A stretch of 64,000 nucleotides of DNA from Blastomyces gilchristii SLH14081 (Eukaryota; Ascomycota; Eurotiomycetes; Onygenales; Ajellomycetaceae): positions 4,693,359-4,757,358 of the forward strand of contig NW_003101681.1 of the NCBI RefSeq assembly GCF_000003855.2, given 5' to 3'. Below the pieces are notes generated by a model. The model searched no databases. It saw nothing but the letters and a program-made list of their open reading frames with translations, and was not told the DNA's origin. The stretch's first letter is position 1; every line of letters begins with the position of its first letter. The translations under genes were made by a program, and so were the position numbers. Positions 15,189 through 15,800 of the stretch are shown in pieces.

Positions 15189-15412
15189 ATGGCCCGTGAA
15201 AAGCGAGTACCACGCCAGGCCATAATGGCCAACACAGCCCCAGCACGCAGGGCTGCATACATGCAGTGTGTGCTGGACTGGGAGGCTGCATGGGTTGCAA
15301 ACCAGCGCCAGCATCCCAGGGAGAGCTGTGCGGCGTGGGAAAGCCGCAACCCTCAGCCACATGCACAGAGGGTGGATCATTGCAGTAAGTGCATGTGCAT
15401 TGCATGGAAGTA
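15133..15412. other. GC-rich, CpG-retaining island within the decayed hAT element
   Basis: About 280 bp with many CpG, CC and GG dinucleotides, covering exon 1 of the H3-fold gene and about 55 bp before it. The boundary at its 3' side coincides closely with the end of exon 1. Composition flips back to AT-rich and CpG-free within about 30 bp. Confidence 0.8.
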
Positions 15413-15800
15413 ACACTTTTTGATAATACTCAGTCTCTGATATCATGAAAATAGAGTCTCTCTGTGAGATTCATTTTTACCAGAAGTCAGAGAATCTTAT
15501 ATTTCTCAAGACCATCTTCACCTGCCTTGTTCATGAAATTGATGAGAGAAATCATCAATTTCAGTGTTCTGCTCTTGATGTCATTCAAGTGGCAGCAGAG
15601 TTCATCCTGGCCACACTTTTTAAGTGTATGTTTTCTAAATATTCACATTTATACAGATATATACTGATTATTTGTTAGATGATGTTAAGACAATGACTCA
15701 TCACAGCTGTGTTACTCTCACTGTGAGAGATACACAGTTAGTGATGAACATTGTGAAGACTCTGAGAAGTGAGTATTTTAGAGATACTGCAGCTCTGTGA
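15189..15800 (+). CDS. Histone H3-fold protein encoded inside the hAT transposon
   Basis: Exons 15189-15384, 15434-15625 and 15679-15800, with GT..AG introns of 49 and 53 bp, give 510 nt (169 aa). After a 65-residue N-terminal tail that begins MAREK (compare MARTK of H3), exon 2 reads SLCEIHFYQKSENLIFLK and then IFTCLVHEI, collinear with the H3 alpha-N and alpha-1 helices. FQCSALDVIQVAAEFILATL and LF lead into exon 3, with HHSCVTLTVRDTQL. From H3 position 84 to 132 the alignment needs no gap, including across the second intron; the alpha-1/loop-1 segment is three residues shorter. Nuclear localisation and nucleosome or centromere interaction are inferences from the fold. The tail lacks the canonical H3 Lys pattern, so a CENP-A-like or divergent H3 variant is likely. 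Exon 1 is GC-rich and unmutated; exons 2-3 are CpG-free but have no stop. The exon 1 link is the least certain part. Confidence 0.8.

Follow-up and report, generated by a model that had tools for sequence, protein, structure and literature searches.

The window, a 64,000-nucleotide stretch of the Blastomyces gilchristii SLH14081 genome (contig NW_003101681.1, forward-strand positions 4,693,359 to 4,757,358; position 1 below is its first letter), carries a gene for a histone H3-like protein (H3L) inside a hAT DNA transposon. We found that the H3L-carrying element forms a multi-copy family and that the gene is not a one-off passenger of a single copy. On balance, we take the Blastomyces family to be a three-gene hAT DNA transposon of ~5.77 kb that encodes a transposase, a central lysine-rich protein, and H3L. 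It also seems likely that H3L was selected while the element was mobile, i.e., that it worked as an accessory protein.

The limits of the element were defined by the similarity among copies at its ends, by terminal inverted repeats (TIRs), and by target-site duplications, as follows:

3277..16289, no strand, hAT element including a nested retrotransposon (end similarity among copies, TIRs, duplications)
3269..3276, no strand, left target-site duplication CTCTGTAT, with a direct copy at the right flank
3277..3287, plus strand, left TIR TAGACTGACCG, a perfect inverted copy of the right TIR
16279..16289, plus strand, right TIR CGGTCAGTCTA, a perfect inverted copy of the left TIR
16290..16297, no strand, right target-site duplication CTCTGTAT, a direct copy of the left flank

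The TIRs of the window element are 11 bp long and perfect, and the target-site duplication is 8 bp long. Together with the dimerisation region of the transposase, these short TIRs and the 8-bp duplication are features of the hAT superfamily. We searched the genome (74.8 Mb, 75 contigs) for other copies. Among the 29 other copies brought in by an H3 search, similarity to the window stopped at 16284-16294 in 26; the remaining three stopped earlier. On the left side, base 3277 was the start of all 40 scored matches, the window's own included (40 scored out of 2,038 first-look candidates). The 8-bp duplication was perfect in 9/10 copies (window included), and the tenth matched at 7/8 positions. 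The nine other copies with both ends measured 5,765-5,876 bp; their left TIR starts TAGACTGGCCG, one base off the window's, and matches the inverted right end usually found at 10/11 positions. A retrotransposon insertion extends the window element to ~13 kb; subtracting the insertion leaves 5,765 bp. Besides positions 3269 and 16290, CTCTGTAT occurs twice more in the window, once per strand.

An earlier note on this DNA had proposed that an H3-fold gene sits inside a genuine hAT element, and had asked whether the frame is always found between the same ends. An H3L region was present at the expected place in 20/20 elements selected by their left end (the best of 39 non-window left ends, chosen regardless of H3), hence the gene is no one-off insertion. 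In 19 of these 20 elements, the H3L match ended no more than 5 bases short of the right end or ran past it; in the other one, L082, it was interrupted. Pairing 149 H3L places with 114 of the 150 scored places of the hATC dimerisation region yielded 42 hATC/H3L pairs on opposite strands within 2-9 kb, 36 of which were spaced by 4.2-5.0 kb. When two protein searches were merged, H3L was found at no fewer than 255 distinct places in the genome. This number is a lower bound: each search scored 150 of ~1,260 candidates, and starts less than 400 bases apart were merged.

The three-exon frame of 169 aa described in the note, with introns of 49 and 53 bp, was recovered with GT-AG borders at both introns:

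15189..15384, plus strand, H3L exon 1: arginine-rich N-terminal part, unlike an H3 tail; inside the annotated protein P0001
15434..15625, plus strand, H3L exon 2: H3 alpha-N to alpha-2 (Pfam and PDB match); annotated start at 15455 by our own reading
15679..15800, plus strand, H3L exon 3: loop 2 to alpha-3, stop codon at 15798-15800 (Pfam and PDB match)

The annotated protein, P0001 (BDBG_16365), has 162 aa and is named 'Histone H3' in one source. By our own reading, it uses an acceptor for intron 1 that lies 21 bp downstream of the one in the 169-aa model. The histone assignment proposed in the note withstood profile searches. PF00125 matched H3L residues 75-154 with an E-value of 2.9e-7, above the curated cut-off, and the best PDB sequence match was histone H3.2 (E 1.6e-6), the listed PDB matches being H3. 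A profile made from 39 database relatives of H3L matched with an E-value of 1.7e-10, and 26/39 of these relatives matched PF00125 at E 0.01. The alignment to H3, said in the note to cross an intron without a gap, is indeed gapless at intron 2, yet a 3-residue deletion precedes the equivalent of R83-F84-Q85. We found no conserved H3 N-terminal tail with modifiable lysines in H3L: the Pfam match begins at residue 75, and some PDB alignments extend weakly to residues 42-43. Directly after the H3L stop codon, a T-rich tract (15801-15930) shows more transversions among copies than the adjoining stretches.

We wondered where H3L comes from. P0001, P0004, and P0005 were 36%, 38%, and 37% identical to the host H3, respectively. 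The figure was 45% for P0003, whose histone match was the best of the database relatives scanned singly. P0003 was also 44% identical to the host Cse4 and 45% identical to human CENP-A. Because these identities are about equal, the H3 type of origin cannot be named, and the sequences would not favour an origin from CENP-A. In the host H3 gene, the codon for glycine 44 is interrupted by an intron (located by eye), which shares its phase with H3L intron 1 and, under the annotated model, lies about two codons from it. No intron of the host H3 gene corresponds to H3L intron 2. This pattern may mean that the captured gene already contained an intron and then evolved independently for a long time. 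A search with the H3L protein found 39 proteins, all named Blastomyces, with no Dothideomycete relative.

Two further genes lie in the element, both on the strand opposite to H3L:

3669..13258, minus strand, broken hAT transposase, multi-exon (structure inferred by eye), interrupted by the nested retrotransposon
near 3669-4013, minus strand, hATC dimerisation region of the transposase (converted from element positions of other copies)
13731..14540, minus strand, broken central gene, three exons (inferred), lysine-rich; no Pfam family above cut-off

In other copies, PF05699 (Dimer_Tnp_hAT) matched ~430 bp inside the left end, the expected element position; the window copy was not among the 150 places listed in the genome search for PF05699. 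Each of the 25/25 copies read had 14-29 in-frame stops in the 478 inferred transposase codons. The window row has 26, a count that includes a frame shift from our own join in this row. Two places, L039 and L049, were excluded from this set, L049 containing a run of N. L039 (C18:548343-548480) is the best-scoring PF05699 place yet lacks the left end of the H3L-carrying family; it probably belongs to another hAT family. A profile search for the transposase revealed at least four relatives (the searches for the transposase and the central gene scored 7,978 and 7,998 word-sharing candidates). One of them, P0147, is a predicted protein of 730 aa from Histoplasma capsulatum G186AR, which is 56% identical, carries PF05699 (E 8.5e-11), and is matched by read-through pieces of other copies. 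Another is a predicted protein of Coccidioides posadasii, 38% identical. A transposase read-through without the dimerisation region matched no Pfam family. The product of the central gene is rich in lysine and arginine, and its reading frame is broken in the window. This gene has at least 107 database relatives, named Blastomyces or Emmonsia, and predicted proteins are present in B. silverae and Emmonsia crescens. In the putative introns of all three genes, H3L included, TTTTTGATAAT-like motifs recur (seen by eye) and could be common signals for splicing or branching.

The mutation pattern of the element is of the repeat-induced point mutation (RIP) type, with C-to-T changes throughout. CG and CC dinucleotides are scarce in the element. 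In a left-end alignment of 25 copies, read on one strand, C/T-mixed versus fixed columns numbered 53 vs 2 for CG, 57 vs 3 for CC, 93 vs 53 for CA, and 17 vs 115 for CT. In the larger H3L alignment, misaligned rows included, 30 CT columns were mixed and 25 were fixed. The RIP-like change of the left-end alignment, in which CG and CC are almost all hit, CA often, and CT rarely, is unlike the CpA preference described for Pseudocercospora. We then scored H3L integrity in the unmasked 107-copy alignment, using the 169-aa gene model. Only the window copy (1/107) kept an open H3L frame with all splice sites, and 106/107 copies were disrupted. The H3 part was free of stops in 36/107 copies, all four splice dinucleotides were kept in 89/107, and exon indels were found in 9/107. 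In the window copy, the open H3L frame stands alongside a broken transposase.

Was H3L ever under selection? We counted only transversions because RIP makes transitions. After parts of 51 rows had been masked, transversions present in at least 3 of the 107 H3L copies fell at codon position 3 in 4/4 cases (p=0.012). In an earlier set of 35 copies, position 3 accounted for 10/17 of all transversion sites (p=0.027) and for 3/3 of the shared ones. For the transposase (25 copies), transversions present in at least 2 copies were at position 3 in 4/4 cases (p=0.012) and all transversions in 8/20 (p=0.34). The placement of the H3L transversions common to at least 3 copies at third positions is a small hint of past selection. 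Older, shared changes appear constrained, and younger ones do not, as would be expected of a gene that was needed during transposition and dead afterwards.

At the equivalents of H3 R49, R52, R69, R72, and R116 (our own numbering, from the alignment), the copies display mixtures of Cys, His, and Tyr, and at R83 they display Gln or a stop; five copies have Arg itself at the R69 equivalent. Since these mixtures are what the decay of CGN arginine codons gives, active ancestors probably had arginines there. A mixture of this kind also occurs at two H3L positions where H3 has no arginine. The H113 equivalent is mainly His or Tyr, and the D123 equivalent is mainly Asp or Asn. Several of the kept H3 arginines touch nucleosomal DNA, and H113 and D123 are located at the H3-H3' interface. 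Plausibly, therefore, an active ancestral H3L could enter nucleosomes.

Several results weigh against a histone-like protein maintained by selection. Over all transversions in the 107 copies, 20/52 were at position 3 (p=0.26), which is no bias, and those in at least 2 copies gave 6/10 (p=0.077). The introns, used as a neutral yardstick, had changes at only 1/102 sites at the 3-copy level. The H3L selection test consists of four sites, with a sharing threshold picked post hoc, and one of them, at 15444, falls within an intron in the annotated model, leaving 3/3 (p=0.037). Before masking, the 107-copy test had shown no bias at either the 1-copy or the 2-copy level, owing to noise from misaligned rows. 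The H3 arginines R53, R63, R128, R129, and R131 are not kept in H3L. Two AlphaFold models of H3L were weak, with a mean predicted local distance difference test of 67 and 70, and Foldseek returned no significant match for either. Histones were absent from the 31 matches listed for the first model and from its 50 VIA-align matches listed; for the second, 24/28 listed chains came from nucleosome structures, at E-values of 0.7 or worse.

How might an H3-like protein have served a transposon? H3L lacks the H3 tail, and with it the lysines that take silencing marks, which leads us to propose an accessory histone that makes unmarkable chromatin. H3L, via its H3 fold, would have joined nucleosomes, where it would have offered no H3 tail; the element, or the target chromatin, containing H3L would then have been unable to take silencing H3K9 or H3K27 marks. 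We regard this mechanism as a tentative possibility, and somewhat doubtful.

The alternative is that H3L was a neutral passenger, an H3 gene captured once and copied with the element, without a role. The RIP-mutated copies, only one of which has an open frame, are consistent with it, as is the lack of codon bias over all variants together. This is the transduplication view of Dhillon et al. 2019 (PMC6710886), and the published precedents are interpreted there as capture. However, H3L is present in all 20 elements selected by their left end, and the transversions common to at least 3 copies are at third positions only. Moreover, H3L has diverged for long from the host H3 (36-45% identity over four relatives) with many H3 core positions kept, and its second intron is absent from the host H3 gene. 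We thus regard a role-free passenger as rather unlikely, and favour an accessory protein that was selected while the element was mobile.

The window copy could also be a living gene that the fungus kept or co-opted as a histone variant: it has the only open frame of the 107, canonical splice sites, and an annotation (BDBG_16365), and in exon 1 it has fewer mutations than any other copy sampled (unmutated fraction of informative sites 0.86, against a median of 0.56). However, the unmutated fractions of exons 2 and 3 are 0.67 and 0.69 and fall within the spread of the sampled copies, whose maxima are 0.72 and 0.75. In addition, Cys or His stands in this copy at several positions that are arginine in H3, and the rest of the element is broken, with a nested retrotransposon within. 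A living host gene is therefore very improbable, and the window H3L copy is most likely a relic today, not a working gene. An ordinary host gene with transposon-like flanks by coincidence has practically no chance of being correct: the H3L-bearing right part recurs genome-wide and ends at the TIR in 26/29 copies, which rules it out, all 20 elements selected by left end hold H3L, and 9/10 copies have perfect duplications.

To our knowledge, histone genes are rarely carried by mobile elements. With its many copies that hold an H3-like gene between hAT ends, the Blastomyces family is one of a known kind. The suggestion in the note that no such family had been described is incorrect, as H3-carrying hATs are reported in the available parts of PMC3538342 and PMC6710886. 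According to the former (Manning et al. 2013), Pyrenophora tritici-repentis has a ~5.6-kb hAT with a transposase, a central open reading frame, and a divergent H3L. It reports 26 near-identical H3L copies in two element forms, two of the copies being frameshifted, and expressed sequence tags for H3L, which it places in neither H3 nor CenH3. As in Blastomyces, this hAT has a dimerisation region, and its long form (~5.6 kb) has three genes. Unlike in Blastomyces, the host is a Dothideomycete and the N-terminal tail, with insertions, is said in the part available to resemble H3 tails.

Dhillon et al. 2019 (PMC6710886) describe, in the part available, H3-carrying hATs in Pseudocercospora, Cercospora, and Sphaerulina (Mycosphaerellaceae), with hundreds of RIP-destroyed copies, and treat the gene as a captured housekeeping gene. 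These elements share the 8-bp duplication, the RIP-destroyed copies, and the AT-rich DNA with the Blastomyces family. In contrast, they are ~9.5 kb long, with 18- or 20-bp TIRs and RIP of the CpA type, and the same part reports no other domains found in them. The P. fijiensis element also differs in having one or two H3-like copies, read there as an intronless retrocopy. The terms Blastomyces, Histoplasma, Ajellomyces, and Onygenales are absent from PMC6710886.

The presence of the same hAT and H3-like combination in a distant fungal class weakens the case for a housekeeping gene captured by chance. The most interesting point is the matching three-gene plan of the Pyrenophora and Blastomyces elements, the former likewise having a central gene and being of almost equal length. 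The Pyrenophora, Mycosphaerellaceae, and Blastomyces elements could, instead of three accidental captures, represent one old kind or a repeated convergence in which a divergent H3, tail-less in Blastomyces, is functional and gives silencing-proof chromatin, a scenario that we consider unlikely. Among the at least 107 central-gene and at least four transposase matches, none was named Pyrenophora or other Dothideomycete; shared descent of the Pyrenophora and Blastomyces elements is thus unproven. What is new, so far as our literature searches show, is a member of the kind in Onygenales, with a non-H3 N-terminal exon replacing the tail and with its own introns. Among the literature matches listed, no paper on an H3-carrying transposon in Onygenales was found by title or abstract start. 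The terms 'histone' and 'hAT' are absent from the Blastomyces genome papers PMC4595289 and PMC11540331; in its available part, the latter tabulates Blastomyces DNA transposons at only 0.20-0.35 Mb. A Coccidioides transposon paper, PMC5872316, discusses hATs, as its accessible text indicates. Our results suggest that at least some annotated Blastomyces 'Histone H3' proteins are transposon relics, and the usefulness of an H3 to a transposon becomes answerable by copy-by-copy genetics and chromatin assays.

Self-encoded relief from silencing has a parallel in the plant VANDAL elements, which are of the Mutator type and use an unrelated protein, and are comparable in that respect only. They are mentioned, with their anti-silencing proteins, in the available part of Kojima 2025 (PMC12730594), which reports TET/JBP genes in fungal DNA transposons, some of them hAT. 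The cargo of these fungal transposons is likewise chromatin-related and thought there to counter silencing; it is, however, a DNA-modifying enzyme and not a histone, and the elements are from other fungal groups.

The insertion that splits the transposase is foreign to the hAT element:

4545..11787, minus strand, nested long terminal repeat (LTR) retrotransposon (LTR pair, TCAGA duplication, pol-like frames)

Its LTRs, whose outer ends lie at 4545 and 11787, are 258 bp long and 89% identical, and the TCAGA duplication lies around it at 4540-4544 and 11788-11792. The pol-like reading frames on the minus strand were recognised by eye and are heavily mutated. A short GC-rich islet, also seen by eye, is present at 5690-5830 within the AT-rich retrotransposon.
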